Positions 1 through 51,391 of a stretch of DNA of 64,000 bases are shown piece by piece. A program made the translations under genes and the position numbers. A model generated the notes under the pieces. That model saw nothing but the letters and a program-made list of their open reading frames with translations. It was not told where the DNA came from and ran no database searches. This stretch comes from Lacihabitans soyangensis (GTDB taxonomy: Bacteria; Bacteroidota; Bacteroidia; Cytophagales; Spirosomataceae). Location: assembly GCF_024343775.1 (NCBI RefSeq), contig NZ_RJUF01000173.1, forward strand, positions 1 through 64,000, read 5' to 3'. Each line of letters starts with the position of its first letter. Position 1 is the stretch's first letter.

Positions 1-1430
1 CGTAAACGTAGTTGCATTTATCGGACAGTTATTCGCTGAGTTTGTTCCAGTTAAGTTAAATGTCAGCGTTACGTTGGCATTGGTTGTATTGTTTATTACA
101 GGCAAATCTACGTTGGCTCCTGTTCCGGTGGTTGCTGACATCGTTACGCCCGCTGGTAATGTTCCTTGTAGCGTCCAAGTAAAGGTGTTCGTTCCTCCAC
201 TTGTATTATTCACAGTTGGCGTTACTGCGGCTGGATTTCCTCCACTACAAATTGATGGTATTGAAACAGTACTGAAAGTAATGGTTGGAAGAACTGTTAT
301 GGCAATTGTGAATGGAGTTCCATTACAACCGGCGGTAACTGGAGTTATTGTGTAAGTAACAATGCCATTCGAGCTTCCGTTATTGGTTAAGGTTTGAGAA
401 ATTGGGGCATTTGCACCAACTAAATTATCCGAATGGCCAGTTATTGTCCCTGCTGTAGGACTTGTTGTTATGGCAGCTGTCCAGGTGTAGGTTGTTCCTG
501 CTATGTTTGAAGTTGGGGTTCTACTGAAACTTGATCCTGAACAAATAGTTTGCGGACCAGGATTTGTTATTGTTATTGTTGGTTGAACAGTTATGTCGAA
601 TGAAAATGGAGTGCCATTACATCCATTGGCAATAGGCGTAACTGTATACGTAAGAACACCGTTTGTAGTTCCTGAATTAGTTAAAGTTTGACTTATTGGT
701 GCAGAAGAGGCAGTCGAATTATTGCTGCTTCCAGTTATAGAACCTCCAGTTGGTGCAGTAGTAACTGCAACCGTCCAAGTATATGTAGTTCCTATAATAT
801 TAGAGTTTGGTGTTCTACTAAAAGCTGTTCCCGAACAAATTGTCTGAGGTCCCGGATTGATAATGGCTATAGTTGGTTGAACAGTTATCGCAAACGTAAA
901 TGGAACACCGTTACAACCATTTGCAACAGGAGTTACGGTGTATGTAACTACTCCATTTGTTGTACCTGTATTGGTTAATGTTTGTGTTATGGGGGCGGCA
1001 GAAGCAACTGTGTTGTTAGTAAAACCCGTGATTGTTCCAGATGTTGGTGCCGAGGTTATCGCAGCAGTCCAAGTATAGTTAGTTCCTGTAATATTTGAAG
1101 TTGGAGTTCTACTGAATGCATTTCCTGAACATATCGTTTGATTACCAGGGTTGATGATCGTTATAGTCGGCCTCACTGTAACATCAAATGTAAAGCTTGC
1201 TCCAGGACAAATACCATTATAAGGAGTAACCGTATATCTCACCACAGCATCAACTGCGGTTGTGTTTGTAAGAGTTTGCGAAATTGGACCACTAACTGAA
1301 GTGGTTTGATTTGTATGTCCAGAAGAAGTTCCAGAAATTTGAGCAACTGTCCATCTATATTGTGTACCTGGAATATTAGAAGTAGGAGCAACCGAAAATG
1401 CAGTACCTGTACAAATAGTTTGTCCTGTAG
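1..1430 (-). repeat. tandem ~98-residue PKD-like repeats inside the giant adhesin
   Basis: The motif QTICSG followed by TPTSNIxGTxYTW recurs at about 1425, 1140, 848 and 552 (minus strand), with a degenerate copy near 246. Spacing is 280-296 bp, or about 94-98 residues. Each unit runs QTICSG...SRTP.SNI.GT.YTW...ISQTLTN.G..NGVVTYTVTP...GC.G.PF.F.ITV. The copies are close to each other at the DNA level, which suggests recent amplification and a region prone to recombination. Confidence 0.85.
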
Positions 1431-4400: not shown

Positions 4401-7400
4401 AGATGGATCCTGTTCCATTTGAAACATTCGCTGTTATTCTCGAAGGAGTTCCGATACAGGTAACATTGCTAGCTGCTACTACAGTGGCAGTAGGGGCTGG
4501 TACCACCCTAATCCTAAAAGTATTTGATGTACCCGGTGAGCAAGAACCACCAGCTCCGTCTACCTCTAGGCGGTAAAAATTATTGTTACCAGGTAGCAAA
4601 AAGCTTTGAGTTAAGGTAGGACCAGTTGCCCCTGATAGAAAATTCCAAGAAGTACCATTTGTTGAACTATACCACTGATAAGAATAAGTTCCCTGAACAT
4701 TCAGAGAAGAAGTAATAGTTGAAGAACCATTCACACATATCAAACTATCTACCGAAGTTATGTTAACTGTAGGACTCGACACTATATTTACTGTAACATT
4801 CCCCGTTGCAGTACATCCTGCGTTATCAGTTACTGTGAGAGTGTACGTTCTTGTTGAGTTTGGATTAACGGTAATTGTTGATGTATTTGGAAGACTACCT
4901 CCACCAGTCCATAAAAAAGTATAAGGTGCTACACCCTGAGTAGTTGAGCCTGATATTGGCACAGATATTTGGGCACAGGCCGTAATATTCGGAGACATAG
5001 TCAAACCACGCAATTGCCCATTATGAGCCAAAGTGACACTAGGCAAAACAATCGGACATTGAGTACCTGATGTCCATCGAGCTCTTAAATTATATATACC
5101 AGCTGGTAAATTAGGTATCGTATAAGTACCAATATTATCATTAACAGTGTAAGGATAAGTTGTTCCACCATCAATACTCAAACTTATTTGAGTTTGACTT
5201 GGATCATCTGTAATGTCAAAAGTTATCGAGCCATCGTTAAATCCACAATTTGGATTAACAAAGGTCCGAGTTACCACTGGATTAGCGACCACTGAAATAT
5301 TAGTGGTATAAGTATTTGTACAGCCACTTACTGTAACTGATAGGGTGTATATACCCGCAGCTGCTGTACTTGCATTTGAAATACTAGGGTTTTGACTACT
5401 ACTTGAAAATCCATTTGGCCCTGCCCAACTATAAGACCCTCCCGAAACATTCGTAGCAGTTAAATTAATTGATGCCCCCTGACATACTGTTAAATTGGAA
5501 TTGGGTGTTGAGCTAAAAGATGCCGGCTGAGTAATAGTAATGGTGTTTGTAGCCGTACATCCATAAGAATCTTGCAATGTTACCGTATAATTACCCGCTG
5601 CTAGGTTTGAAAATACACCTGACGACTGAAAAGCTCCACCATTAATACTATATGTATAAACCGGAATGGTCAAGGAACTTGGAGTAAAAGGTCTTAAAAC
5701 TGAAGATGGTAAAATCTCTGATGGAACTACTGTAGGCTGACCGGGCTTCGACCAACCAACTGCTAGGTTATCACCACCACCACCTTCCTTGTGCAATATC
5801 TCAAGGTAATAGATCTGACCAGCAGTTAGTGTAATGGCTACCGATCTTTGCGATGGAAACTTATTCCATTCCTCTTCATTGGTAAAACCCGACACATTTG
5901 CTCTTAAAACTCTACTACTAGGATCACTAGTTGTACCTATCCACAATTGACTATCATCATCCGACGAAATCCAAAAGTAATAAGTACCAGTTTCGCGTGG
6001 TACTAGATATCCAATCATTCTCGAACCATAATTGTCCAAGAAATTAGAAGGGGCCTTTGTTCTACTTATCAAAAAGTTACCATCGGGAGAATTGGGATAG
6101 TCTGGATTGGTAGTTGTATTGGTCAAATTAGAAACTGCACTTCCGCTCAAATTATCCCAATACTGATAGGTGATATTACCCAAACCTCCATTACCAAGTG
6201 TACCTGTAGCAGTGATTGTTCCATTATTTTGACCAAAACAACTTACATTGGTTCTTGTTACAGCAACAGCTGGTGGCAAACAAACTACGGGCGTTGCATC
6301 TACTGTTATTACTTTAGAAATACTGACCGAATATCCGTTTTTTGTAACTGTAAGCGTGTAAGTACCCGAGTTAATAGCTTGGGCGTTTGGAATACTTGGA
6401 TTAGGCAAATTGCTCGTGAATCCATTTGGACCAGTCCACAGGTATGTCACTGGAGTATGCTCATAAACGGTCATGTCGTCCATTGCAAAATTATTACCTG
6501 TAGAGCCAGCTGTGAAATTCCGGACAGATATTACCACCGAACCAGTGGTAGTGGCTGTAAATGTAGTGGCCAATTCAGCCCAAGTTCCAGCCGGTGCTGT
6601 TAGATTCCCTGTTCCTAAAGGATTGTTATCTAAAAACCATCTCAATGTGCTCGGGGTACCGCCTGAATTAAAACTTCTTACCCATGCAGATAAATCATAG
6701 GTATTGCCAGCCACAATACTAATGGTCGTAAACCACATTCTCTGTCCCACAGTTCCCGGGGCAGTTACTGCAAAAAGCTCACCTCTTCCAAATCTATCGT
6801 AAAAGTTTTCATAACTAGAACCAAAAATATCAATAGGTCTATCTCCAATGTTATACCTTCCTTCAACATTACCCAAAGGCACGTCAGAGCTAAAGCCTGA
6901 ATTACCATTTGTAAAACTTCCATTTGGAAGTTCATCCAGCAATAAATTTGGAAAACTACCAGTTTGATTAAGATTCAAGGTATTACCAGCTGTTATTACA
7001 ACAGGAGTTGTAATGGTATAATTAGTTACTACTTTTGAAATAACATTAGAAGTAGCTTCAAAACCTGCCGTTTGTGATCTTACCAATCTTCTGTAGTAAG
7101 TGGTTACAGTAATTGGTCCAGGATTGTAGGTCTGCGAGTTTGTGCCAGCGATATCCGTCCAAGTAGTTCCATTGGTACTCGACTGCCAACGATATTCTAT
7201 GGTACCATTGGTTGTAGTTGCTGCTGACACACTTGTGATCAAGGCCGGATCAAAAGGACCATTATTAATTTGATCACCAGCTATTTGTCCGGAGAAGTTT
7301 ATTGGAGGAGCAGGTATGTAAGATTTTACTCTTGAAAGATTTTCCTTTGCCACCGCATGCCCAAAAACAAAGAAACCCCACGCCAAAATTATAGCGAAGG

Positions 7401-7452
7401 TAATTCTGTTTTTAAACAGGTTGGTAAAATTTCTTTCTAGTAAAATTTGCAC
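1..7452 (-). CDS. giant multi-domain surface adhesin (PKD/SprB/PA14 type), 3' end outside window
   Basis: One uninterrupted frame covers 2,484 codons and leaves the left edge still open, so the C-terminus is missing; I expect a T9SS sorting domain there but cannot see it. A hydrophobic signal peptide lies at residues 15-35 (core AIILAWGFFVFGHAVA). Then come Ig/PKD-like modules with repeated YQW and YYR signatures, a jelly-roll-like module ending in NNFAMDDMTVYE (residues ~170-330), and a SprB-type repeat beginning VSCFGQNNGTITATGT (residue ~403). A PA14-like domain sits inside that SprB repeat (residues ~425-580). A second jelly-roll-like module ends in NNFIIDDIKV (about positions 2640-2020), and a block of ~98-residue PKD-like repeats follows. 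No ATG lies between the upstream in-frame stop and the signal peptide, so I chose GTG at 7452. Likely secreted and attached to the cell surface for adhesion or gliding; this is inference from domain content. Confidence 0.85.
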   Translation of the reverse strand, partial: MQILLERNFTNLFKNRITFAIILAWGFFVFGHAVAKENLSRVKSYIPAPPINFSGQIAGDQINNGPFDPALITSVSAATTTNGTIEYRWQSSTNGTTWTDIAGTNSQTYNPGPITVTTYYRRLVRSQTAGFEATSNVISKVVTNYTITTPVVITAGNTLNLNQTGSFPNLLLDELPNGSFTNGNSGFSSDVPLGNVEGRYNIGDRPIDIFGSSYENFYDRFGRGELFAVTAPGTVGQRMWFTTISIVAGNTYDLSAWVRSFNSGGTPSTLRWFLDNNPLGTGNLTAPAGTWAELATTFTATTTGSVVISVRNFTAGSTGNNFAMDDMTVYEHTPVTYLWTGPNGFTSNLPNPSIPNAQAINSGTYTLTVTKNGYSVSISKVITVDATPVVCLPPAVAVTRTNVSCFGQNNGTITATGTLGNGGLGNITYQYWDNLSGSAVSNLTNTTTNPDYPNSPDGNFLISRTKAPSNFLDNYGSRMIGYLVPRETGTYYFWISSDDDSQLWIGTTSDPSSRVLRANVSGFTNEEEWNKFPSQRSVAITLTAGQIYYLEILHKEGGGGDNLAVGWSKPGQPTVVPSEILPSSVLRPFTPSSLTIPVYTYSINGGAFQSSGVFSNLAAGNYTVTLQDSYGCTATNTITITQPASFSSTPNSNLTVCQGASINLTATNVSGGSYSWAGPNGFSSSSQNPSISNASTAAAGIYTLSVTVSGCTNTYTTNISVVANPVVTRTFVNPNCGFNDGSITFDITDDPSQTQISLSIDGGTTYPYTVNDNIGTYTIPNLPAGIYNLRARWTSGTQCPIVLPSVTLAHNGQLRGLTMSPNITACAQISVPISGSTTQGVAPYTFLWTGGGSLPNTSTITVNPNSTRTYTLTVTDNAGCTATGNVTVNIVSSPTVNITSVDSLICVNGSSTITSSLNVQGTYSYQWYSSTNGTSWNFLSGATGPTLTQSFLLPGNNNFYRLEVDGAGGSCSPGTSNTFRIRVVPAPTATVVAASNVTCIGTPSRITANVSNGTGSISFQWQQSLDGSTGWYDVGVNSINYTPDFGVAGVFYYRVIATMSGVGCSYAVSPSFTYTVVNPGVVTTTPVSSQVCLNAILPLNTSVTSVSGTHSLQWQEGSSPSVWWNLTGATNAIYNITNDTLGLRYYRAVVNFSSCGLFYPAPVQIQTNDFPVVTATITNQPVCINGNTQLQGVVSNMTGTASYQWERRSSLSDPWSDAPGATSLNFNPPTNSSGTVYYRLRVNSTALNCGPQYSESITLNIVPQTTVTIAPSNPIICLNGVYTLNSSINNGVGPFTYQWQVSTTGSAGTFSNVASGGNSDTYVIPTVTENTRYYKVIVNASGNGCLPAESNVQMITVLPRPTLSVTNTGVHCIGSVFKLTATPSPTTPTPITGYSWSSANGFTSTQQSPLVLVSSAAMGGVYTVTATGANQCTNTATTNMTIDTNCDDICTGQFVIVPTNPGACTTNTGSVSITTSNAIQTSLNGVNWNTGNFSYTNMSVGNSLFFVRDVASGTVCKNVNITLVSTTSTFFTGQTVTPANGCYSATGAIQLNGVNPTDQVSWMATLGTTSVPVSSLSPANTITGLIPGTYYVKVSRNGEYCYSERYVVVPNSGTPCNPSATCDDALSPNLFPNGDFGSGASENGPVYVDTQYGYSTYTCFAPWDGFYSITNNTNCGGPNGGQSFSTTQATGWWRVLTEDHTPGDVNGYMMVVNAGYTPNIVVEKFINNLCPNTQYNFTAWLRNISPESTIKPNVSFIIDGVIRASSGEVLDDWQQVGFSFKTGASTTSALFAIRNLAPGGFGNNFIIDDIKVSKCPLNISLNAQSVACLGGTNETISATIADPYGEYDFYKWEESNDNGVTWTQTTAPAQGTYSGGVMNVSVNLPTPIVSALSGKLYRIRLSTTLGTINDPGCSVTSQITQIIVPPVTVTVTPPVTICNGSSASLTAVGGGGTSPYTYTWTNTTATGGTVSVSPTTTTNYTVTARDVDNCSATATTQVIVTPLPVASATGQTICTGTAFSVAPTSNIPGTQYRWTVAQISGTSSGHTNQTTSVSGPISQTLTNTTAVDAVVRYTVTPYNGICPGASFTFDVTVRPTITIINPGNQTICSGNAFSRTPTSNITGTNYTWTAAITSAPTSGTITGFTNNTVASAAPITQTLTNTGTTNGVVTYTVTPVANGCNGVPFTFAITVQPTIAIINPGPQTICSGTAFSRTPNSNIIGTTYTWTVAVTTAPTGGSITGSSNNSTASSAPISQTLTNSGTTNGVLTYTVTPIANGCNGTPFSFDITVQPTITITNPGPQTICSGSSFSRTPTSNIAGTTYTWTAAITTSPTAGTITGHSDNLVGANAPISQTLTNNGSSNGIVTYTITPVTAGCNGTPFTIAITVLPTITFSTVSIPSICSGGNPAAVTPTVNNTSGGTNTFTWTLQGTLPAGVTMSATTGTGANVDLPVINNTTNANVTLTFNLTGTNSANNCPINATTFT

Positions 7453-7674
7453 AAATTCCGTTTTTTTTATGTGAGCAGAACGCTTTGGAGATTTTACTCT
7501 CTGAAACCTTCTTTAAACTTATCAAACGGAGGCAAAAAGTGTGCCAACAATTGAATCCTAAGCAATAACAAAACCTAATACACTTGAAAACAAACATTTA
7601 CAAAAATAAAAACTTTTTAAAATGTATTATTTAATTATTTGTACATATATCTAAATATAATTTAATTAATAAAA

Positions 7675-7718
7675 AAAAAGGCCATTCGGAAGCATAATAT
7701 CCTCCAAAAAGCCTTTTT
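7675..7718 (-). terminator. rho-independent terminator downstream of the LytTR gene
   Basis: Outer stem AAAAAGGC / GCCTTTTT with an inner GGAG/CTTCC pairing. On the minus strand it is followed by a run of T. The stretch 7453-7822 otherwise holds no gene I can support; it is A/T rich and contains the upstream region of the giant adhesin. Confidence 0.6.
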
Positions 7719-7822
7719 CACCTTTAAAATTCGTTTATATACTATTAAATCATAATACGCTTGCTATCAATACATTAAATACAATATCAATACCTCCTCG
7801 TACTCCCAGAATCTATTTTAAA

Positions 7823-8197
7823 CTAACCCTCATTGAGGTATTCAATAAGCCTTGAACCTAATCGCCTTGAAAGCTTAAAGACTTCACCTGTTGATAGTTT
7901 CACAGACTTAACGCCCTTTTCCTCCATTATTTCATCCACGAATTCAAGATTGAGCAAAAGCCCTTTTCTTGCAAGGAAAAAATTGCACTTTCCTTCTAAT
8001 TTGGTGGTATAATGTTTAAGGGTAAATGATGAACAAATATAGCCCTTGTTGTTTAGCCTAATCATAGAATAATTACCAGCAAAGCTTTCAATATATTTGA
8101 TGGTGTTGAATTCCACGGCTTTTTTGCCATAATTATAAATCAATTTCTCTGGGACCAAAGTGTTAGTAAAAGTGTTCATTTCAATTATAGTTTTCAT
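7823..8197 (-). CDS. stand-alone LytTR DNA-binding domain protein
   Basis: The C-terminal ~100 residues look like a LytTR domain: IKYIESFAGNYSMIRL, then FTLKHYTTKLEGKCNFFLARKGLLLNLEFV and VKLSTGEVFKLSRRLGSRLIEYL. There is no receiver or transmembrane sensor domain, so this is a one-domain transcription factor rather than a classic LytR response regulator. The start is uncertain. The frame is open to a GTG at 8266 and has ATGs at 8233, 8197 and 8179; I chose 8197 because the LytTR homology begins just after it. It lies alone, divergent from rpe and upstream of the giant adhesin on the same strand. Target genes are unknown. Confidence 0.75.
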   Translation of the reverse strand: MKTIIEMNTFTNTLVPEKLIYNYGKKAVEFNTIKYIESFAGNYSMIRLNNKGYICSSFTLKHYTTKLEGKCNFFLARKGLLLNLEFVDEIMEEKGVKSVKLSTGEVFKLSRRLGSRLIEYLNEG

Positions 8198-8398
8198 TAA
8201 GTGCTGTAAAATTGCGAAAAGGCGGTGAAACATTTTAGAGTAAAATCCCCTGTTTAGTTCTTTCACTCAATCTAAATTATAACCTTCATAATTCGAAATC
8301 AAACGGTAATAAACGGTTAGTCTCAAAAACTGAGTGAATGGTATAAATTGGTAAATAATTGACAAATCAGTAAATTGCACCAAAAATCAGATTAATAC

Positions 8399-9046
8399 AT
8401 GCCTATCATAGCACCCTCCATGCTGGCCGCAGATTTTGCCAACATCCAAAGAGATACCGAACTCATCAATAATTCATTAGCAGACTGGTTTCATATAGAT
8501 ATCATGGACGGCGTTTTTGTTCCAAATATCAGTTTCGGTTTTCCGGTAACCGAGGCCATAAAGAAGCATGCCAAAAAGCCTTTGGATGTACACCTTATGA
8601 TAGTTAGACCCGAAAACTACATTGATCAATTTGCCAAGTTAGGTGCGGCATATATCTCTGTACATTGGGAGGCTTGTCCTCATATTCATCGCACACTTGG
8701 ACAAATTAAAGAAGCGGGATGTAAAGCCGGGGTGGTTCTAAATCCAGGCACTCCAGTGCACATGTTGGAAGAAATTATATCAGACTGCGACTTGGTCTTG
8801 CTGATGTCAGTAAATCCTGGTTTTGGGGGACAAAAATTTATACCTTCAACCATAGAAAAAGTAAGAAAACTGAAGCAAATGATAACAGAGGCCAAATCAG
8901 ATACCATTATAGAAATCGACGGAGGAGTGAACTACGAAACTGGTAAAGCACTGGTTGAAGCAGGTGCAGATGCCTTGGTAGCTGGCAGTTATGTATTTAG
9001 CAATGCTGATCCATTAAAAACAATAGAAGGCCTTAAAAATCTATAA
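8399..9046 (+). CDS. rpe: ribulose-phosphate 3-epimerase
   Basis: Interconverts ribulose-5-phosphate and xylulose-5-phosphate in the pentose phosphate pathway, in the cytoplasm. The 215-residue product has the full TIM-barrel signature set: IAPSMLAADFANI at the N-terminus, HIDIMDGVFVPNISFG with the metal-binding His and catalytic Asp, LDVHLMIVRPENYI, GVVLNPGTP, VNPGFGGQKF and the phosphate-binding EIDGGVN and AGSYVF near the C-terminus. Length is normal for the family. It stands alone, with the next gene 124 bp downstream carrying its own promoter-like element. Confidence 0.97.
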   Translation: MPIIAPSMLAADFANIQRDTELINNSLADWFHIDIMDGVFVPNISFGFPVTEAIKKHAKKPLDVHLMIVRPENYIDQFAKLGAAYISVHWEACPHIHRTLGQIKEAGCKAGVVLNPGTPVHMLEEIISDCDLVLLMSVNPGFGGQKFIPSTIEKVRKLKQMITEAKSDTIIEIDGGVNYETGKALVEAGADALVAGSYVFSNADPLKTIEGLKNL

Positions 9047-9125
9047 AACAATACATTATCCTGTTTTAAGGCAAAAATATTATCAGAGCCTTACTGTTAT
9101 TCATTATTATTTAACCGAAAATTAG

Positions 9126-9133
9126 TAAATTTG
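9126..9133 (+). promoter_or_regulatory. Bacteroidota -7 promoter element (TAAATTTG)
   Basis: Matches TAnnTTTG exactly, 37 bp before the alpha-oxoamine synthase start. No clear -33 TTTG is visible. Confidence 0.5.
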
Positions 9134-9170
9134 CGGAATTTTTAATTACCATATATTCTAACAAATCAAA

Positions 9171-10418
9171 ATGGTCGAAGATATTTTTGACAAAGTAGCA
9201 AATAACATGGGACCCATTGGATCTCATGCCCATTATTCTCATCACTACTATTCATTTCCTAAACTTTCTGGCGAATTGGGCCCATACATGTCCTTCAACG
9301 GCAAAAGAATGCTCAATTGGTCACTCAATAATTATTTAGGCCTAGCTAATCACCCAGAAGTCCGAGAAGCAGATGCCAAAGCCGCTGAAGAATACGGATT
9401 GGCCTATCCAATGGGTGCTCGTATGATGACAGGAAATTCTGAACTTCATGAGGAATTCGAAAAGCAATTGGCTGAGTTCGTTGGTAAAGAAGATGCTTTT
9501 TTGTTAAACTATGGTTACCAAGGCGTTATGTCGGTTGTGGAATCTATGGTGGATTTCAAAGACGTTATTGTATATGATGCGGAGTCACATGCATGTCTTA
9601 TTGACGGTGTGAGACTACACAGAGCTAAAGGCGGCAAAACCTACACCTTCAAACACAACGATATGGAGAGTTTGGAGAAAAACCTTGTGAGAGCTACCAA
9701 GATAGCCGAAGAACAAGGCGGTGGTATAATGGTAATCACTGAAGGGGTATTTGGTATGTCTGGTGCGGTGGGTAGCTTAGATCAAATAGCAGAATTCAAA
9801 AAGAAATATAAATTTAGACTTTTGGTTGATGATGCTCATGGATTTGGTACTATGGGTAAAACCGGTGCCGGAGTACCTGAGCATTTTGGGGTTCAAGATG
9901 CAGTTGACCTACACTTCTGTACTTTTGCAAAATCTATGGCAGCTATAGGAGCTTTCATCGCAGCCAAAAAAGAGATTATCATGTATTTGAAATACAACAT
10001 GAGGTCTCAAACTTATGCCAAGGCTTTGCCTATGCCATTTGTTTTGGGTGGAATGAAAAGACTAGAATTGATAAAAAAGAATCCTCAGTACAAAGACCAA
10101 TTGTGGACAATTGTAAAGGCCCTTCAGGATGGTTTCCGTAGCAGAGGTTTTAATATTGGCAATACCACCTCACCTGTAACTCCTGTTTTGCTTCAGGGTG
10201 ACTATGACTTGCCTACTGTTACCAATCTTATTAGAGATTTAAGAGAAAACATGGCTATTTTCTGTTCAATAATTGTTTACCCGGTGGTTCCAAAGGGTGT
10301 TATACTTTTAAGGGTTATTCCTACCGCTGTTCATACGCTGGAGGATGTTGAATATACCATGAATAGCTTTGAGGTAGTGAAGCAAAAACTAACGGATGGA
10401 GCTTACAAACCGCAGTAA
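9171..10418 (+). CDS. alpha-oxoamine synthase, PLP-dependent (serine palmitoyltransferase / cysteate acyltransferase type)
   Basis: Fold-type I PLP enzyme of the AONS/KBL/SPT family, which condenses an amino acid with an acyl-CoA or acyl-ACP. Visible: WSLNNYLGLANHPEV, PMGARMMTGNSELHEEFE, the PLP-contact motif VDDAHGFGTMG (D220-H223) and Schiff-base lysine K254 in FCTFAKSMAAIG. The 415-residue length fits. Family knowledge: Bacteroidota use such enzymes for 3-ketosphinganine (SPT), and a sister group makes capnine-type sulfonolipid bases from cysteate, linked to gliding. The N-terminal region with GPIGSHAHYSHHYYSFPKL resembles the version usual in gliding flavobacteria and cytophagas more than the Bacteroides SPT. 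I cannot decide the amino-acid substrate from sequence alone. It is monocistronic. Confidence 0.85.
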   Translation: MVEDIFDKVANNMGPIGSHAHYSHHYYSFPKLSGELGPYMSFNGKRMLNWSLNNYLGLANHPEVREADAKAAEEYGLAYPMGARMMTGNSELHEEFEKQLAEFVGKEDAFLLNYGYQGVMSVVESMVDFKDVIVYDAESHACLIDGVRLHRAKGGKTYTFKHNDMESLEKNLVRATKIAEEQGGGIMVITEGVFGMSGAVGSLDQIAEFKKKYKFRLLVDDAHGFGTMGKTGAGVPEHFGVQDAVDLHFCTFAKSMAAIGAFIAAKKEIIMYLKYNMRSQTYAKALPMPFVLGGMKRLELIKKNPQYKDQLWTIVKALQDGFRSRGFNIGNTTSPVTPVLLQGDYDLPTVTNLIRDLRENMAIFCSIIVYPVVPKGVILLRVIPTAVHTLEDVEYTMNSFEVVKQKLTDGAYKPQ

Positions 10419-10556
10419 AATGTCGACCAAATAAGATTATTACTATATAATCCTCAAAAAATGTAAGTTTTTTTTTGTTAAAAATATTTGAAATTAAAGT
10501 TTTTTCATAAATTGCACTGTGAATTATTTATTATACACTTAAACCCCTTTAAATTC

Positions 10557-10736
10557 ATGGATAAGTATTCTGAACTTTACGACTTAGTTACTTCTTTGAA
10601 AGACGACTTCGACAAATTTTATGACAAGAAAAACAAAGCTGCCGGCACAAGAGTAAGAAAAGGCATGCAAGATGTTGGTGCTTGGGCTAAAGCCGTTAGA
10701 GCTGAAGTACAAGCAATGAAAAATGCTGGTATGTAA
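10557..10736 (+). CDS. histone H1-like (Hc1 family) DNA-associated protein
   Basis: A 59-residue basic, helical protein: MDKYSELYDLVTSLKDDFDK, then KKNKAAGTRVRKGMQDVGAW and AVRAEVQAMKNAGM. This matches the short Bacteroidota 'histone H1' proteins (Hc1-like). The frame is open further upstream, but the ATG at 10557 gives the family N-terminus, so I placed the start there. A strong terminator follows within 30 bp, so it is probably an abundant single-gene transcript. Nucleoid role is inferred from the family. Confidence 0.85.
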   Translation: MDKYSELYDLVTSLKDDFDKFYDKKNKAAGTRVRKGMQDVGAWAKAVRAEVQAMKNAGM

Positions 10737-44093: not shown

Positions 44094-44684
44094 TCACTGA
44101 ATTTCAACATTCAAATTAAACTCGATACGTACCTCATCTTTGATTTTTATAAACTTAATTGGGCTTTTTGGTTGTATTTCGTAGTCACTCATTGAAATAA
44201 CTTTGCAAGCATTGATGATATAGTTTTTAGCATTTATTTTTTTCAATGTCACATTCAATGTTTGCGGTTTGGTTTTACCAGAAATACTAATGAGCGTTTT
44301 AATACAATACTTATAGGCTTTGTTTACCTGTAATTCTTGTTCTTGATGATTTGGAACGGCGGTGAGCATTTCGACATTTATAAAAGGATGTTTTTCAGCC
44401 TTTAATGAGGTCGCTAAATCGTTGTTTATGAATTTGTTACTACAATCTAAGCTTTTTATTTTTACGTTAAAATTGGCTTTATCGAAATCTATTTGTCTAG
44501 TAGAATTATTAATACGGGCAATCAATTGTGCATTTTCGAAAGTATCATCACAAGCACAATTAAAATCTTTTACTGAGGTTTTTCCTTTCAATACCATCTT
44601 GCTGCCTTTCTTGATTTGATAATGAATCAATGAGGGATTAGTGAAAGAAGATAGAAACAAAACAATCAACAATCGGACTAACAT
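44094..44684 (-). CDS. YceI-family lipocalin-like protein (second copy)
   Basis: 196 residues, signal peptide (LLIVLFLSSFTNPSLI). YceI pattern: GSKMVLKGKTSVKDFNCACDDTF, the conserved LDCSNKFINNDLATSLKAEKHPFI and the final DEVRIEFNLNVEI. YceI proteins are periplasmic beta-barrels that bind isoprenoid lipids such as quinones. A Cys pair (CAC) is present. It follows a terminator, so it is probably separately transcribed although it belongs to the same YceI/porin cluster. Confidence 0.82.
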   Translation of the reverse strand: MLVRLLIVLFLSSFTNPSLIHYQIKKGSKMVLKGKTSVKDFNCACDDTFENAQLIARINNSTRQIDFDKANFNVKIKSLDCSNKFINNDLATSLKAEKHPFINVEMLTAVPNHQEQELQVNKAYKYCIKTLISISGKTKPQTLNVTLKKINAKNYIINACKVISMSDYEIQPKSPIKFIKIKDEVRIEFNLNVEIQ

Positions 44685-44700
44685 TTGCTTAAATTTAAAG

Positions 44701-44734
44701 AAAAGAGGACTCAGTTTTATTTGAGACCTCTTTT
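44701..44734 (-). terminator. terminator downstream of the porin gene
   Basis: AAAAGAGG-CTCA / TGAG-CCTCTTTT stem, with single unpaired A on each side. Confidence 0.65.
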
Positions 44735-44748
44735 ACATTTTATTCTAA

Positions 44749-46065
44749 TTAAAATCCTACAATCGCTTGAACTACAACTCCTTTGAAGCCAGCACCTGCC
44801 AATATATTGGCTGTTGGATAATCGTTATATTTCTGATTTACATATTCTGCTTTCATTAGTATGTTGTTAGTCACAAACCATCCAGCGGCAATTGCTGTAC
44901 GATCAATACTTTGTTCATCCACTACTTTTGAAATCATCTGACCAGAGACAGTATTGTATTTTGCACCTACAAAAAGGTTCTCTTTTTTACCAAGTCTGTA
45001 AACAGCCTCTACCGCAACTTGATTGGCTTTCCTTTTGTCAAAATTCGCAACTTCCTCCGCATAAGATCCACCTTTAGAATTTTCTAATGTACCGAACACT
45101 TCCAAGCCATGAACTTTGGCGAAAACGTTGAACTGAACTGAAGCTACTTGGTTTGTAAATCCTGGATTTACCCTACCTGAAAAAGCATTTCCTGTTGTGG
45201 TTGCAGCCTCGGCCTCAGTCACATAGAAGTAATTACTACCCGTTCTATCTCCACCATAAAGTGTACTACGTCCATCGCTTTGGTTGTAGTAAAATGATCC
45301 TGAAGCTCTTACTCTTATTTTTTCTTGCACTTTTTTGTCATAGGCCAATTTACCATAAACAGAAGGGCTTCTTTTATAGGTTTCGGTAGTGCTTCCTGGC
45401 ATTAGTGGCTTTTGGAAACCACCATTGATTAATCCATTAGACAAAGCCACCATTCCCAATAATCCATTTTTTTGTAAATAAACCTCCGCAGCAACCTCAG
45501 TAGCAAAAGCATCCATGATGTAGTTTTCTATGAACGGATTGTAAAGAGCGTGTCCTCCATCGCTTCTCCTGAAGTGCATGTCCCCGTAGTTTATTTCCAT
45601 GTGACCGACTTTTACGGTTGCTAGTTTCATGATTTTATCCCAAAATTCGCCTTTGAATGGCACTTTGTCCATTTGAATGTAACCACCTTTTACCCAAGAC
45701 TCATTGTGGTGGCGAGATGAAAGATAGGTAGTTAGATTCAACCTGATACCATCAGCAAGCTGCACGTCTGTGTACAAATTGGCTTGAGCAATAGCAAAAC
45801 CAGATGCCAAACGTGGGTACAATTTCACAGCACCCGAGTTTTCATGGCTTAAGCTTTGAAAAGGTTGTGTAAAACCAGCACCAATTCTTACTTTTAATCC
45901 GTCAAATTTAGAATCTGTAATCTTAGGCGTTTCAAATACATTAATTCCAGTTTTGTCATATGCTCTAAGATTATCTATGTGTGCTTGTTGTGCTACTGTA
46001 GCTAGCGGCAATGATAATAAGGCTGTTACAGCTACATTTCTCATTTGTGAAATAAAAGTTCTCAT
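44749..46065 (-). CDS. outer-membrane porin-like beta-barrel protein
   Basis: 438 residues, signal peptide (VAVTALLSLPLATVAQQ), then amphipathic strands: GLKVRIGAGFTQPFQSL, FAIAQANLYTDVQLADGIRLNLTTYL, VKVGHMEINYGDMHFRRSDGG (a conserved loop in phosphate-selective-type porins), and a terminal strand GVVVQAIVGF with C-terminal Phe, the usual outer-membrane insertion signal. It overlaps the upstream YceI gene by 4 bp (ATGA). A substrate cannot be named. Confidence 0.78.
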   Translation of the reverse strand: MRTFISQMRNVAVTALLSLPLATVAQQAHIDNLRAYDKTGINVFETPKITDSKFDGLKVRIGAGFTQPFQSLSHENSGAVKLYPRLASGFAIAQANLYTDVQLADGIRLNLTTYLSSRHHNESWVKGGYIQMDKVPFKGEFWDKIMKLATVKVGHMEINYGDMHFRRSDGGHALYNPFIENYIMDAFATEVAAEVYLQKNGLLGMVALSNGLINGGFQKPLMPGSTTETYKRSPSVYGKLAYDKKVQEKIRVRASGSFYYNQSDGRSTLYGGDRTGSNYFYVTEAEAATTTGNAFSGRVNPGFTNQVASVQFNVFAKVHGLEVFGTLENSKGGSYAEEVANFDKRKANQVAVEAVYRLGKKENLFVGAKYNTVSGQMISKVVDEQSIDRTAIAAGWFVTNNILMKAEYVNQKYNDYPTANILAGAGFKGVVVQAIVGF

Positions 46066-46661
46066 ATGTTTACGTTGTTTATTTTTTTAAGAATTACATC
46101 AAAAGTTATTTCAATTTCATCGTCCACCTTTATGGCTCCAGCCATGAAAGAAGGTGGCTTAATACCGTGGTTTGACATTAATATTTTCCTACTTCCTTTG
46201 ATTTGGACGTCTCCGTTGTCGAGGTTGACTACTTTTAAAATCAAATCAACCGACTTGCTAACTCCACCAATTGTAAGATTTCCATTAACTTTTAAGGTGG
46301 ACAAATCTCCCTTTGTTTCAGCAGAAAGCGTATTGGTGTATTCGTAGGTGATATAAGGAAACTTTTCGGCTTTCAGAGTTTTGTGGGTTCTTTCATCCAT
46401 CAAATCTGAGTCTTGATGTGACTTCATAGAACTCACCTCCATTCTTACCACAGCAGCATTGATTTTCTTTAGATTTCCATCGACAATGGAGAAGTCGCCC
46501 GAGAAATTAAGTTTTGTAACAGCAGATGACCATTTGTGCATGGTGGAGTTACCAGAAATAAGAACTTTTGCAGATCTAGCACTGATTTTAGTTTGACTGT
46601 AAGCTAAACTCCCAACTACAAAGGCTGGAATGAATAACATCAGAATAGTTTTTACTTTCAT
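46062..46661 (-). CDS. YceI-family lipocalin-like protein (first copy)
   Basis: 199 residues. Signal peptide in MKVKTILMLFIPAFVVGSLAY. YceI motifs: SARSAKVLISGNSTMHKWSS, SGDFSIVDGNL, LMDERTHKTLKAEKFPYITY and GNLTIGGVSKSVDLILKV, MSNHGIKPPSFMAGAIKVDDEIEITFDVIL. The frame is open to 46763, but ATG 46661 starts a proper signal peptide. First gene of a YceI-porin operon; a CRP/FNR-type palindrome lies about 100 bp upstream. Confidence 0.87.
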   Translation of the reverse strand: MKVKTILMLFIPAFVVGSLAYSQTKISARSAKVLISGNSTMHKWSSAVTKLNFSGDFSIVDGNLKKINAAVVRMEVSSMKSHQDSDLMDERTHKTLKAEKFPYITYEYTNTLSAETKGDLSTLKVNGNLTIGGVSKSVDLILKVVNLDNGDVQIKGSRKILMSNHGIKPPSFMAGAIKVDDEIEITFDVILKKINNVNI

Positions 46662-46744
46662 TTTCTTTGATTTTTGATGATGCAAAGATTCACCAAAAAC
46701 AAAGACCATCACATGACCATGACACCCATCAGTCGAGATAAGAA

Positions 46745-46771
46745 TCACATCGTTATGTGACAAAAGTCACA
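46745..46771. promoter_or_regulatory. CRP/FNR-type palindromes between the YceI and photolyase operons
   Basis: TGTGACAAAAGTCACA at 46756-46771 is TGTGA-N6-TCACA, a perfect CRP-type operator. Overlapping it, TCACATCGTTATGTGA (46745-46760) is a second palindrome with 4-bp spacing. They lie ~100 bp upstream of YceI and ~230 bp upstream of the SDR gene, so either operon may be controlled. Which regulator binds is inference. Confidence 0.65.
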
Positions 46772-46941
46772 ATATAAAATATCTAAAAGTAAACAAAAAT
46801 TGGCTTTTTCACCGTTCCAGTCGTTATCCCAAGAGGATTATTGAAGTAGTTATATTTTTTATAAATATTAGTCTAAATTGAAAAATAAGCACTCAAACTA
46901 TTGACACTAGAAAAAAATGAAACATTTATATAATCAAAAAA

Positions 46942-46966
46942 AGACGTTGAAACAATTAGACGTTGA
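46942..46966 (+). promoter_or_regulatory. 9-bp direct repeat AGACGTTGA in front of the photolyase operon
   Basis: AGACGTTGA occurs at 46942-46950 and 46958-46966 (16-bp offset, about 1.5 helical turns), ending 25 bp before the SDR start. The rest of 46772-46941 is A/T rich with no feature I recognise, and no TAnnTTTG is evident. This could be an activator site or an alternative-sigma promoter. Confidence 0.45.
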
Positions 46967-46991
46967 TATGGTTTTTCTAAAAAAGAAATAA

Positions 46992-47684
46992 ATGAGCAAT
47001 ATATTAGTAATAGGAGGATCTTCGGGAATAGGATTATCAACCACGGAGTTGTTAGTAAACAAAAAAAAGCAGGTATATGCCACCTACAATCATTCAGAAA
47101 ACAAAATCGATGGTGCCACCTACTTTCATTTAGATGTTAATCAGCAAGAGTGGGATTTGTCGGTTTTGCCTGAAGTAATAGATGGCTTGGTATATTGTCC
47201 GGGAAAAATAAACCTAAAGCCTTTCGCAAGGTTGAAACCTGAAGATTTCATTGAAGACTACAAAATTCAGGTTTTAGGTGCCATAAAAGCAATCCAACTG
47301 CTTTTACCTAAACTGAAAAAATCAAGTTCGCCATCGATAGTTTTATTCTCTACCGTTGCAGTGCAAACTGGTTTTTCGTTTCATAGTATTGTCTCTAGTT
47401 CAAAAGGAGCCATTGAAGGACTAACCAGAGCTTTAGCAGCTGAGTTGGCTCCATCCATACGCATTAATTGTATAGCTCCCTCCATCACTGATACACCGCT
47501 CGCGGGAAATCTTCTAAACTCGCTAGAGAAAAAAGAGGCAAATGCACAGCGGCACCCCTTAAAAAAAGTAGGTGAGGCTAAAGATATAGCCCATGCAGTA
47601 GCCTTTCTTCTATCGGAGGAATCGAGCTGGATGACAGGACAAATTATGCATATTGATGGTGGAATATCAAACCTAAGAGTGTAA
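46992..47684 (+). CDS. SDR-family protein lacking the catalytic tyrosine
   Basis: 230 residues, Rossmann fold with nucleotide motif IGGSSGIG at the N-terminus and LFSTVAVQTGF holding the catalytic-Ser region (Ser120/Thr121). The YxxxK motif reads VSSSK: Val134 replaces the Tyr and Lys138 is kept. The C-terminus GQIMHIDGGISNLRV is normal. It may therefore bind NAD(P) or flavin without classical reduction. The Asn of LVYCPGKINLKPF replaces the usual NAG. First gene of the photolyase operon; the next gene starts directly after its stop codon. Confidence 0.82.
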   Translation: MSNILVIGGSSGIGLSTTELLVNKKKQVYATYNHSENKIDGATYFHLDVNQQEWDLSVLPEVIDGLVYCPGKINLKPFARLKPEDFIEDYKIQVLGAIKAIQLLLPKLKKSSSPSIVLFSTVAVQTGFSFHSIVSSSKGAIEGLTRALAAELAPSIRINCIAPSITDTPLAGNLLNSLEKKEANAQRHPLKKVGEAKDIAHAVAFLLSEESSWMTGQIMHIDGGISNLRV

Positions 47685-49151
47685 GTGATTGGGAAAAAGG
47701 CTGTAAATATTGTTTGGCTAAAAAGAGATCTTCGGGTACAGGACCATGCGGCTTTTGATGCTGCAGACAAATCAGAATTGCCAATTTTACCGATTTTTAT
47801 ATTCGAACCTAGTCAACTAGACTATCCAGATTGTTCTGATAGACACCTTTTGTTTCAGTATCATTCTATTTTAGGAATAAATGAGTTTCTGAGCCCTGCC
47901 AATATTAAAGTTGAAATATTTCACGAGGAAGCGGTACCTGTCTTCGAATACCTAAGTGAGAATTTTGATATTAAAACTGTTTTCAGTCATCAAGAAAGTG
48001 GAATTCTGCTCACCTATAAAAGAGACTTGGCAGTTAAAGATTTTCTTAAAAAGAAAAATATCGATTGGGTAGAATTTCAGAGAGATGGAATCATTAGAGG
48101 ATCAAAGAACCGAATCGATTGGGATAAAAACTGGTATGCGGCCATGCACGCCAAAATGATAAAAAACACCTATCATTTGCAAGATAAAATCGTATTAGAA
48201 AATCCTTTTCCGCTTTCGGAGGATTTAAAAGAGCGACTAAAAGAGTACCCAAAGCGTTTTCAGCCACCTGGAGAGAAAAACGGACTTCGCTATCTAGACT
48301 CGTTTGCAAATGACCGTGGCCGAAACTATTCCAGACATATTTCAAAACCTACCGAAAGCCGCACTTCTTGTATCAGGATTTCTCCCTATTTAGCTTGGGG
48401 AAATTTGTCGGTGAAAATGGCCTATCAATATTTGTATGTTGCTCAGGTCCAAAAATCTTACAAAAGAGCGATTCAAAATGCAATGGTAAGGTTAAGGTGG
48501 AGAGATCATTTTTCTCAGAAATTTGAAGTTCAATGCCAGTATGAAACAGAATGTCTAAACCCCAATTATGAAAAAATAGATTGGTCAACAAACCCCGAAC
48601 ACATAAAAGCTTGGGAGGAAGGCAAAACTGGCCTCCCGCTTGTGGATGCTTGTATGAGGTGTTTGCACGAAACCGGCTGGATAAACTTCAGAATGCGTGC
48701 CATGGTAGTATCTGTGCTATGCCATCACCTGTTTATCGACTGGCGACTAGGCACTTATCATCTTGCAAGGCTTTTTCTTGACTACGAGCCGGGCATACAT
48801 TACCCACAGTTTCAGATGCAAGCAGGTACTACTGGAATCAATACCGTCCGGATTTATAATCCAATAAAACAGTCAGAAGAGCACGATCCTGAAGGAATTT
48901 TTATAAAAAAATGGGTGCCTGAATTAGGTAATGTTCCAACGAAATATATCCATGAACCATGGAAAATGCCGGCACTGGAAATGCATCTCGCTCATTGCGA
49001 AATTGGCAAAGATTACCCCGCTCCTATTGTGGACTTTGATACCGAAATAAAGAAGAACAGACCGCTGATTTGGGGTCACAAAAAAAGTAAAGAAACCAAA
49101 AGTTTTAATCCTAAAATACTCGAATTACATGTCAGACCACAAAATAATTAG
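47685..49151 (+). CDS. photolyase/cryptochrome-family flavoprotein with atypical FAD pocket
   Basis: 488 residues. N-terminal alpha/beta antenna domain ([18 protein letters not shown]), helical FAD domain with [18 protein letters not shown] and [18 protein letters not shown], ending in a KKWVPEL block. Compared with E. coli photolyase, the canonical segment NNGGWQW reads [12 protein letters not shown], so the Asn near flavin N5 and the proximal Trp are not present by my alignment. The first FAD-domain Asn of GWMHNRLR reads GWINFRMR. It may be a specialised repair enzyme or photoreceptor. GTG start follows the SDR stop with no gap; it overlaps the next gene by 23 bp. Confidence 0.85.
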
Positions 49152-49770
49152 AACCGAAGATTTAGAACAAATGGAAACACGTTATCGTGCTTCATTTGTA
49201 AATTCCTTGGGCGGTTTCAAGAGTGTGGTGCTCATCGGCACCAAAAACAAAGAGGGCCGGGAAAATCTAGCCATTTTTAACTCTTTGATACACATCGGAG
49301 CCAATCCAGCCCTTTGTGCATTCATTGTTAGACCAGATGTTTCGCCAAGACATACGCTTGAAAACATCATCGAAACTGGCTTTTACACCATCAATCATCT
49401 TAATACAGACATATACAAATCAGCACACCAAACCTCTGCTCGTTATGATAGAGAAACCTCAGAGTTTGAGGCCACGGGTTTGGAAACAGAGTATTTGGAG
49501 GGTTTCTTCTCCCCTTTTGTGGCGGAAAGTAAAGTAAAATTTGGCTGTGAATTTGTTCAAAGGATAAACATAGAACTCAATGGAACGAGCTTGATCATTG
49601 GTAAAATAGTTCAAATCTCTGTACCTGAAGATTGTATTTTAGAGGACGGATTTGTGGACATAGAAAAGGCTGGAAGCCTGACTGTAAGCGGACTAGACAG
49701 CTATCATAGCACGTCTCGTTTAGCCAGACTAACCTACGCTAAACCCAATAAATTTCCAGAAGAGATTTGA
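49129..49770 (+). CDS. flavin reductase-like FMN-binding protein
   Basis: 213 residues, split-barrel flavin reductase fold: [52 protein letters not shown], and [23 protein letters not shown]. Members bind FMN or FAD and often NAD(P)H. In this operon it could supply reduced flavin to the two photolyase-type proteins, which is inference. It overlaps the photolyase gene and also the following DUF2256 gene. Confidence 0.85.
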
Positions 49771-49916
49771 AAAAGCAACATTTGCCCTCTAAGGTTTGTG
49801 TGGTTTGCGGCAGGCCTTTCGACTGGAGAAAAAAGTGGGAAAAAGTTTGGGATGAAGTAAAATATTGCAGCGAAAAATGTAGAAAAAACAAACCCAAAAA
49901 TCTGGAAAATATTTAA
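49767..49916 (+). CDS. DUF2256 zinc-ribbon-like small protein
   Basis: 49 residues from a TTG that overlaps the flavin reductase stop by 4 bp (TTGA). Motif [19 protein letters not shown] followed by YCSEKCRKN: four cysteines in CxxC and CxxxC pairs, matching the DUF2256 family which is often found next to photolyase/cryptochrome genes. Probably binds a metal ion. Function unknown. Its stop is 5 bp before the next gene, so it is inside the operon. It is easy to miss because of its length and start codon. Confidence 0.87.
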
Positions 49917-49921
49917 AATTT

Positions 49922-51391
49922 ATGAAAACGGCAGCATTGATATTTCCACATCAGTTGTTTGAAAACGCTGAAATACACAGCCAGAATGCTGATTTTTATA
50001 TCATTGAGGAATATTTATTTTTCAAGCAATTCAATTTTCACAAACAAAAACTTTGGTTTCACAGGGCAAGTATGAAGTCTTACGAGGCATTTCTGAAAAA
50101 CCTCGGCAAAACTGTATTTTATATCGATGCCCATTCAGACAAAAGTGATGTAAGGGCTCTGATTCCGTTTTTGAAAGAAAACGCTTACAATCAGATACTT
50201 TACACTGACCCAACAGACAATTGGCTTGAAAAAAGAATAATTTCCTGTTCTAAATCTCTCAATTTAAGAAGATTTGAATCTCCACTTTTTATTAACTCTA
50301 CCAAAGAGAATATAGCGTTTTTCGAAACGAAGAAACGTATGTTTCAAGCGGATTTTTATATTTATCAAAGAAAAAAAACTGGAATACTGGTAGATGCAAC
50401 TCAAAAACCGATCGGAGAAAAATGGAGTTTAGATGAAGAAAACCGAAAGAAATTTCCAAGTTCAAAAACTCCACCATTTGTTCAGTTCCCAGAAATTGAA
50501 AATATCCAAAAAGAAGCTTTCGAATACATAAACAACTCATTCAGAGATAATTTAGGAAAACTTAACACAACATTTAATTTCCCCATAGACTTCGAATCGG
50601 CCAAACGGTGGCTAAAGAATTTTCTGGAAACCAGATTTCATTCTTTTGGAGAATACGAAGATGCAATCGTAAAAAATGAGATAATACTGCATCACAGTCT
50701 ACTCTCTCCGCTGATAAATGTTGGTTTACTTACACCCGATTATGTATTAGATAGCACATTAGAATTTGCGGCAAAGAACAATGTGCCTTTAAATTCTTTG
50801 GAGGGATTTGTGAGGCAAATAATAGGCTGGAGAGAATTTATCAGAGCTGTTTATGAACTCAAAGGCGTCGAAGAAAGAACCAAAAATTTCTGGAAATTTA
50901 AACGTAAAATACCGGCATCTTTTTACGATGGCACCACTGGCATTTTACCCGTAGACATCACCATCAAAAAAGTCTTGCAAACTGGCTACTGCCACCATAT
51001 TGAGCGTTTGATGGTTCTTGGCAATTTTATGTTGCTCTGTGAGTTTGATCCTGTCGAGGTTTACAGGTGGTTTATGGAACTCTTTATAGACGCATACGAC
51101 TGGGTAATGGTCCCTAACGTGTATGGCATGAGCCAATTTGCCGATGGCGGTTTGATGTCTACCAAGCCGTACATTGGCGGCAGTAATTATATCCTAAAAA
51201 TGAGTGATTACCCGAAAGGCCCATGGCAGGAAGTCTGGGACGGACTCTATTGGAGATTTATTCATCAACACCGAGATTTTTTCAGTAAAAATCCTCGCCT
51301 AAACATGATGGTAAACATTTTTGATAAGATGGACGACCTGAAACAAGCCGCCCATCTTAGAAATGCCGAGGAGTTTTTGGGGAAATTATAG
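49922..51391 (+). CDS. FeS-BCP/CryB-family photolyase-like protein lacking the Fe-S cysteines
   Basis: 489 residues, the 'deoxyribodipyrimidine photolyase-related' family (COG3046, relatives of PhrB and CryB). N-terminal LIFPHQLFEN, then IGWREFIRAVY, GYCHHIERLMVLGNFMLL, FIDAYDWVMVPNVYGMSQFADGG. In PhrB-type enzymes the next segment has a CxxC-x12-C ligand block; here it reads MSDYPKGPWQEVWDGLYWRF (residues 427-446) with no cysteine and is shortened. So the [4Fe-4S] cluster is probably missing. May be a photoreceptor or a (6-4) repair enzyme of a different kind. Last gene of the operon, followed after 7 bp by a convergent gene. Confidence 0.88.
   Translation: MKTAALIFPHQLFENAEIHSQNADFYIIEEYLFFKQFNFHKQKLWFHRASMKSYEAFLKNLGKTVFYIDAHSDKSDVRALIPFLKENAYNQILYTDPTDNWLEKRIISCSKSLNLRRFESPLFINSTKENIAFFETKKRMFQADFYIYQRKKTGILVDATQKPIGEKWSLDEENRKKFPSSKTPPFVQFPEIENIQKEAFEYINNSFRDNLGKLNTTFNFPIDFESAKRWLKNFLETRFHSFGEYEDAIVKNEIILHHSLLSPLINVGLLTPDYVLDSTLEFAAKNNVPLNSLEGFVRQIIGWREFIRAVYELKGVEERTKNFWKFKRKIPASFYDGTTGILPVDITIKKVLQTGYCHHIERLMVLGNFMLLCEFDPVEVYRWFMELFIDAYDWVMVPNVYGMSQFADGGLMSTKPYIGGSNYILKMSDYPKGPWQEVWDGLYWRFIHQHRDFFSKNPRLNMMVNIFDKMDDLKQAAHLRNAEEFLGKL

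Follow-up and report, generated by a model that had tools for sequence, protein, structure and literature searches.

The window analysed here is a 64,000-nucleotide stretch of the Lacihabitans soyangensis genome (contig NZ_RJUF01000173.1 of assembly GCF_024343775.1, positions 1 to 64,000; genome G000, 5.65 Mb in 198 contigs). At positions 46992-51391 it carries five plus-strand genes, which encode, in order, a short-chain dehydrogenase/reductase (SDR) family protein, a photolyase-family protein (PHR1), a flavin reductase-like protein (FLR), a DUF2256 protein and a second photolyase-type protein (PHR2). We consider it somewhat better than an even chance, at a probability of roughly 0.57, that this is a photoreactivation operon, in which PHR2 would repair (6-4) photoproducts, PHR1 would act as a photoenzyme with a rebuilt active site, FLR and the SDR would supply reduction, and DUF2256 would serve as a small partner. 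Judged from the sequence comparisons, the new element of the operon is the PHR1 clade, and PHR2 is of an already known kind.

A preliminary description, made from the DNA letters, had noted the compactness of this five-gene directon, and we found the junctions to be 0 bp (SDR/PHR1), a 23-bp overlap (PHR1/FLR), a 4-bp overlap (FLR/DUF2256) and a 5-bp gap (DUF2256/PHR2). The five genes are likely transcribed as a single unit. The same description stated that the SDR has Val for its catalytic Tyr, that the first photolyase lacks the usual Trp/Asn flavin pocket and that the second lacks the Fe-S cysteine block. All three statements were correct, and since the same state was seen in 20/20 SDR, 48/48 PHR1 and 103/103 PHR2 rows of the family alignments, the losses do not reflect chance or the decay of one copy.

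The PHR1 family and its altered active site

PHR1 (47685..49151, plus strand; 488 aa, GTG start) matches Pfam FAD_binding_7 (1.1e-72) and DNA_photolyase (3.2e-14). As compared with E. coli Phr, a class I cyclobutane pyrimidine dimer (CPD) photolyase, E274 is replaced by R269, N341 by F335, M345 by A339, N378 by H372, W382 by F376 and W384 by M378. The changes E274R, N341F, N378H and W384M (E. coli numbering, as below) occur in all 48 rows of the family alignment, which was built with a cut of at least 250 bits and holds 47 distinct sequences, and M345 is Ala or Ser in the clade. The residues that we take to form the class I lesion pocket, E274, N341, M345 and W384, are thus replaced in 48/48 rows. 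W277, R342, R344 and D372 are retained in every row, and Y222 is also retained. The Trp triad W306-W359-W382 is kept in 4, 47 and 0 of the 48 rows, respectively (W300, W353 and F376 in the window protein). A structure comparison gave PHR1 the same fold as CPD photolyases. PHR1 shares this fold and Y222, W277, W359, R344 and D372 with the class I enzyme, but differs from it by E274R, N341F, M345A/S, N378H, W384M and T234C, by the unconserved W306 and W382, and by its position in a separate clade.

The 48 rows come from Bacteroidota, Salinivibrio, Vibrio, Pseudoalteromonas, Tritonibacter, Novosphingobium, Duffyella and Deinococcus. They fell on one side of a branch with 100/100 support, apart from class I and DASH, in a tree that has few reference classes (class II, class III, plant/animal cryptochromes and eukaryotic 6-4 photolyases being outside it) and a long stem that calls for caution about long-branch effects. 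PHR1 scored 157.4 bits against the NCBIfam DASH model, below the cut-off of 317.05. An N-terminal alpha/beta photolyase domain is present (PF00875 at 9-133), and PHR1 in this respect differs from the NewPHL or short photolyase-like (SPL) proteins, which are defined by the lack of that domain and are, we assume, single-stranded DNA photolyases. A haloarchaeal relative (L136 4920-6518, annotated as two genes) scored 232 bits, under the 250-bit cut; it has the NFRMRA motif but retains the Asn and Trp (AINYCQW), and is likely to represent a sister group of the PHR1 clade as judged from its sequence.

In Deinococcus, the PHR1-type photolyase is fused to a uracil-DNA glycosylase (Ung) in all four members scanned, all of them on plasmids (L116 4998-7271; L118 3998-6280; L119 3995-6316; L135 2968-5250). 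In the open-licence literature, as far as its text was accessible, we found no description of such a fusion in Deinococcus, of the PHR1 clade or of this operon, and the accessible parts of PMC7560933, PMC9498864 and PMC12082625 contained nothing on the operon genes. Two candidates for a characterised relative were set aside: Vibrio cholerae Cry2 is described as a CRY-DASH in the available part of PMC5241685, and PhrSph98, whose predicted homologues conserve Glu310 and Asn384, is described in that of PMC9649867 as belonging to a sister group of class II. The marine Synechococcus Phr1 mentioned in the accessible portion of PMC9426592 may or may not fall within the PHR1 clade.

One alternative explanation is that PHR1 is a redundant, divergent CPD photolyase whose changed pocket still binds CPDs, which is a special case of the photoreactivation operon in which PHR1 has no new substrate. 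The CPD-photolyase fold and the invariant W277, R342, R344 and D372 are consistent with this, as is the Ung fusion, because photoreversal of deaminated cytosine dimers leaves uracil, which Ung can remove. The replacement of all four presumed pocket residues in every row argues against it, and the genome already encodes a CPD photolyase-type protein with the standard motifs HNRVRM and NNGGWQW. With this protein and a DASH cryptochrome encoded elsewhere in the genome (contigs C180 and C176; L125 and L126), ordinary CPD repair does not require PHR1. We regard this explanation as possible but doubtful.

Distribution and context of the gene set

Gene association was examined in two sets. One consists of 80 PHR2-centred loci, those among 547 whose PHR2 was most similar to the window copy; it is biased toward the Fe-S-free PHR2 kind and has less than 2.5 kb of upstream DNA in 11/80. 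The other, less biased set comprises 198 genomes from 103 genera, in which related genomes are not independent. Locus L001, a repeat of the window, was left out of the alignments; the partial PHR1 of L090 enters the 80-locus counts and stands outside the 48-row residue counts. For the genome counts, PHR2 matched in 71 genomes, of which 6 with only weak partial matches were dropped, and PHR1 matched in 62 genomes, of which 35 had no match above 183 bits and were excluded. Also set aside were a partial match to the SDR in G144, a second class I-like match of G011 and two weak matches to DUF2256, that of G082 exceeding the cut-off and that of G011 falling short of it. Class I/DASH-like genes entered the counts only if they matched PHR1 with an E-value of 1e-40 or better.

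In the 198 genomes, PHR1 occurred together with PHR2 in 27/27 genomes (8.9 expected) and with DUF2256 in 26/27 (8.5 expected); DUF2256 occurred with PHR2 in 58/62 (20.4 expected), and FLR with the SDR in 23/33 (6.7 expected). By genus, the counts were 17/17 for PHR1 with PHR2 and 34/36 for DUF2256 with PHR2. Co-occurrence of PHR1 with class I/DASH-like genes was near chance (7/27, 5.7 expected). Among 14 named control genomes, Caulobacter and Synechococcus elongatus had matches to both DUF2256 and the N-domain of PHR2, and Haloferax had one to the N-domain.

Within the 80 loci, DUF2256 lies no more than 400 bp upstream of PHR2 in 62, PHR1 is present in 35 (34 on the same strand), FLR in 32 (31 on the same strand), the SDR in 17 (13 on the same strand) and DUF2805 in 30. 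A short FAD_binding_7-only gene, which we call NewPHL/SPL by appearance (one member was scanned), occurs in 42/80 and has no counterpart in the window operon. All five genes stand on the same strand in 6/80 loci, and in the order seen in the window in 3/80, all close relatives. The association of flavin proteins noted in the preliminary description is conserved. Of the two points that it proposed to check in homologous loci, the residue losses proved consistent within each family, and the five genes rarely stay together. On these data, the gene set is a mosaic photorepair toolkit in which DUF2256 is tied to the 6-4 photolyase family.

The DUF2256 protein (49767..49916, plus strand; 49 aa, with a TTG start overlapping the FLR stop; Pfam DUF2256 5.7e-23) scored 81.2 bits against PF10013 (cut-off 25) and has four Cys arranged as two pairs, which gives it the look of a zinc ribbon. 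No paper treating DUF2256 together with a photolyase was found in the open-licence literature. Among solved structures, FLR (49129..49770, plus strand; 213 aa; Pfam Flavin_Reduct 2.4e-18) is most similar to that of a putative flavin reductase, PDB 3fge (E 3.5e-68). L077 (6305-6778; 157 aa) and seven other loci contain another gene of the flavin-reductase type, which is smaller (PF01613 in the member scanned).

These associations bear on a second alternative, that PHR1 is a cryptochrome-like blue-light sensor without repair activity and that the operon couples light sensing to the expression or redox state of repair. The loss of the class I lesion-holding residues in 48/48 rows would suit a sensor, as would H372, which presumably lies beside FAD N5 at a position where cryptochromes also differ, and the presence of other photolyase-type proteins in the window genome. 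Against it stand the constant company of PHR2, set against the near-chance co-occurrence with class I/DASH-like genes, and the lack of a regulator among the identified recurring neighbour families (about 22 families in at least four loci, some of them scanned). The signalling role suggested in the preliminary description gained no direct support, and the Deinococcus fusion to a uracil-DNA glycosylase domain favours DNA repair. We think a sensor doubtful.

A further, unlikely reading is that PHR1 is a separate photolyase class for a lesion left by the known classes, loaded with FADH- by FLR as a dedicated NAD(P)H-flavin reductase. The lesion could be, for example, dimers with cytosine deaminated to uracil, or secondary (6-4) products; a deaminated-dimer substrate would account for the Ung fusion in Deinococcus. 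The Trp triad would then have been abandoned, and the Tyr-less SDR would perhaps aid FLR. If this were true, repair would be under metabolic control in addition to its need for light.

The surroundings of the gene set in one plasmid are suggestive of its physiological setting. In the Mesorhizobium terrae locus L130, the Tyr-less SDR and PHR2 lie near genes for cyclopropane-fatty-acid synthase, fasciclin and MsrPQ; the stretch 1-10576 holds cfa, fasciclin, MsrPQ, the Tyr-less SDR, CIA30, Fe-S-type PHR2, hemH, NUDIX and photolyase genes, and by its gene content looks like a photooxidative-stress island. According to the accessible part of PMC7074977, the RpoE regulon with which Rhodobacter sphaeroides responds to singlet oxygen includes the SDR RSP_1087, the photolyase phrA, a fasciclin and cfaS. 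This likeness between the gene lists hints by analogy at a photooxidative-stress setting for the gene set. A rhodopsin search of the window genome gave no match, and the controls gave none either.

The operon is flanked by genes on the opposite strand: the upstream one encodes a YceI-domain protein and the downstream one a gamma-glutamyltransferase. The operon promoter is presumed to lie in the intergenic stretch 46764..46991 (plus strand), which separates the operon from the divergent YceI-type gene. A CRP-like palindrome, TGTGACAAAAGTCACA, lies between these divergent genes at 46755-46770 and is also found in L032 and L033; it may serve the YceI gene rather than the operon. On the minus strand at 44094-46763, a YceI-domain gene, a gene for a 438-aa protein without a Pfam match and another YceI-domain gene follow consecutively.

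PHR2, the SDR and the three residue losses

PHR2 (49922..51391, plus strand; 489 aa) contains the DPRP domain PF04244 (1.1e-48) and FAD_binding_7, PF03441 (1.6e-06), and is placed in the prokaryotic 6-4 photolyase family as an Fe-S-free type. Its best matches among the best 80 of 547 loci are from Spirosoma, Leadbetterella and Lacihabitans (87, 81 and 81% identity). The FeS-BCP structures of Agrobacterium PhrB (PDB 4dja) and 9hnk matched it with 249 and 259 bits over most of its length, but PHR2 differs from them in lacking all four Fe-S Cys and 10 loop residues. With the Cys columns defined by 7 distant Fe-S rows (7/7 with Cys), the window protein has P343, P431, a gap and E437 at these positions; three of the four belong to one loop, from which 10 residues are missing. 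All four Cys are absent in 103/103 rows of the PHR2 close clade (101 distinct) and present in 38/38 further Fe-S-type copies. Tyr335, Trp383, Phe384, Phe388 and Met396 of PHR2 correspond to PhrB W342, W390, Y391, Y395 and E403; the W342 position is Tyr in 65 and Trp in 38 of the 103 rows. The electron chain is thus incomplete, a feature not specific to subgroup M introduced below, and a Met lies near FAD N5. The residue on the N5 side differs by kind, being Val in the Fe-S rows (L024-L030) and Met in the Fe-S-free rows, and the Y391 position is Phe in both.

The available part of PMC9178010 describes a subgroup M, including Prochlorococcus PromaPL, without the four cysteines; there, an intact electron chain is absent from every member of subgroups Chl, HC, Ac and M, and 37/50 of their members have Met at the E403-equivalent position. 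Compared by its described features, the window PHR2 matches this published Fe-S-free kind, with a DPRP N-domain and an FAD domain, no Fe-S Cys, an incomplete electron chain, and Met beside FAD N5 with the paired His kept (GYCHHIERLM). In the accessible text of PMC9426592, PromaPL lacks the Fe-S cluster and is named a (6-4) photolyase, and a phr2 mutant of Synechococcus showed a UV-B survival about 1,000 times lower. As far as that text goes, it is inconsistent on the lesion repaired by the PromaPL-type protein of Synechococcus.

Fe-S-type PHR2 was found in closely similar gene neighbourhoods. L137 and L138 have the order FLR-PHR1-DUF2256-PHR2, with all four Cys in PHR2, and L140 has SDR(Val)-FLR-DUF2256 followed by a four-Cys PHR2. 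In L130, one CIA30 gene separates the Tyr-less SDR from a PHR2 of the Fe-S type. L131, from Methylobacterium, has matches to the SDR and to Fe-S-type PHR2 about 120 bp apart. Sorting by score, then confirmed by the presence or absence of the Cys in all 65 genomes, gave 23 of the 198 genomes with the Fe-S-free kind, 42 with the Fe-S kind and none with both (4.9 expected; two-sided p 0.005, relatedness ignored). One genus has both kinds, in different genomes. From this pattern, Fe-S and Fe-S-free PHR2 look like interchangeable versions of one function.

The idea, put forward in the preliminary description, that SDR, PHR1 and PHR2 jointly run one non-textbook light or redox reaction explaining all three losses has in its favour that their genes are physically linked, both in the window and in L031-L033. 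It fails because similar modules carry four-Cys PHR2 (L137, L138 and L140) and the Tyr-less SDR adjoins Fe-S-type PHR2 (L130, L131 and L140); the rarity of the complete five-gene set and the published Fe-S-free PHR2 also speak against it, and we consider it highly improbable. Homologous operons with canonical residues were found for PHR2, but not for the SDR or PHR1. In the alignments, each residue change is fixed within its own family, not jointly.

The SDR (46992..47684, plus strand; 230 aa; Pfam adh_short_C2 1.4e-38) has the glycine-rich motif GGSSGIG and the Rossmann motif and fold of classical SDRs. Val134 replaces the catalytic Tyr of YxxxK, and Ser120 and Lys138 are retained. Across 20 aligned rows (19 distinct, with matches below 150 bits left out; the SDR and PHR1 sequences of L003 and L086 are identical), the Tyr position is Val in 18 and Ile in 2, and Ser120, Lys138 and His131 are kept in all. 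Five added rows bring the absence of Tyr to 25/25 (24 distinct); two of these are the Mesorhizobium and Methylobacterium plasmid copies, which keep the His, Ser and Lys. The position of what we take to be the NNAG motif reads Y-C-P-G. The predicted model has a Rossmann fold near many SDRs, and 3lf2, whose title names an SDR with an atypical feature, is among the structure matches listed. Two other SDRs were rejected as members, both with Tyr retained: the Pseudoalteromonas SDR beside FLR in L114 and the Erwinia L134 match (64.7 bits). The lost Tyr might suggest that the SDR has decayed into an inactive passenger, but this is very unlikely given the conserved Tyr-less state and the retained His131, Ser120 and Lys138.

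Proposed mechanism and its meaning

The gene set, its conserved residues, the co-occurrence and the Ung fusion were observed directly, and from them we infer every activity in the following scheme. The photoreactivation operon would be a local form of a mosaic toolkit that occurs in Bacteroidota and partly in Proteobacteria. As an Fe-S-free prokaryotic 6-4 photolyase, PHR2 would repair (6-4) photoproducts. PHR1, which keeps Y222, W277, R344 and D372 without the class I CPD-holding residues, would most likely be a second FAD photoenzyme that acts on damaged DNA through its rebuilt active site, with altered chemistry. Because the Trp triad is no longer conserved in the PHR1 family and PHR2 lacks both Tyr of the chain, the FAD of both may be brought to FADH- by enzymatic reduction, which is the weakest step. 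FLR as the source of reduced FAD is a guess from family names and linkage. The Tyr-less SDR could be an NAD(P)H-binding reductase for flavin or pterin, for which no Tyr proton donor would be needed, and DUF2256 may be a small partner of the 6-4 photolyases.

Several observations weigh against this scheme. In PHR1, positions that we presume to contact FAD are altered too, with T234 being Cys in 47/48 and R278 being His in 41/48 rows, and the genome has other photolyase-type proteins, as noted above. The distance from PHR1 is 6 kb or less for DUF2256 in 15 of the 26 genomes that have both, for PHR2 in 5/27 and for FLR in 5/16. In the model of the SDR, the active-site loop is poorly predicted, with a predicted local distance difference test score (pLDDT) below 50 at residues 123-133. 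No published activity for any PHR1 member was found in the open-licence literature. For the (6-4) role, PMC9426592, in its accessible part, counts the PromaPL-type Synechococcus Phr2 among predicted CPD photolyases. For the reductase step, the Fe-S rows also lack Tyr391 (Phe in 7/7), and SePhrB, according to the available part of PMC9178010, photoreduces fast without an external donor despite an interrupted chain, so that reduction by FLR and the SDR need not hold.

PHR1 represents a widespread photolyase branch whose active site has been rebuilt identically in 48/48 rows, and its fusion with Ung offers a specific hypothesis that can be tested. For DUF2256, whose function is unknown, a partner now emerges in the prokaryotic 6-4 photolyases, whether of the Fe-S or the Fe-S-free kind. 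The function of the Fe-S cluster is called unknown in the accessible part of PMC12082625, and the mutually exclusive PHR2 kinds, occurring in similar gene sets, provide natural pairs with which it may be probed.

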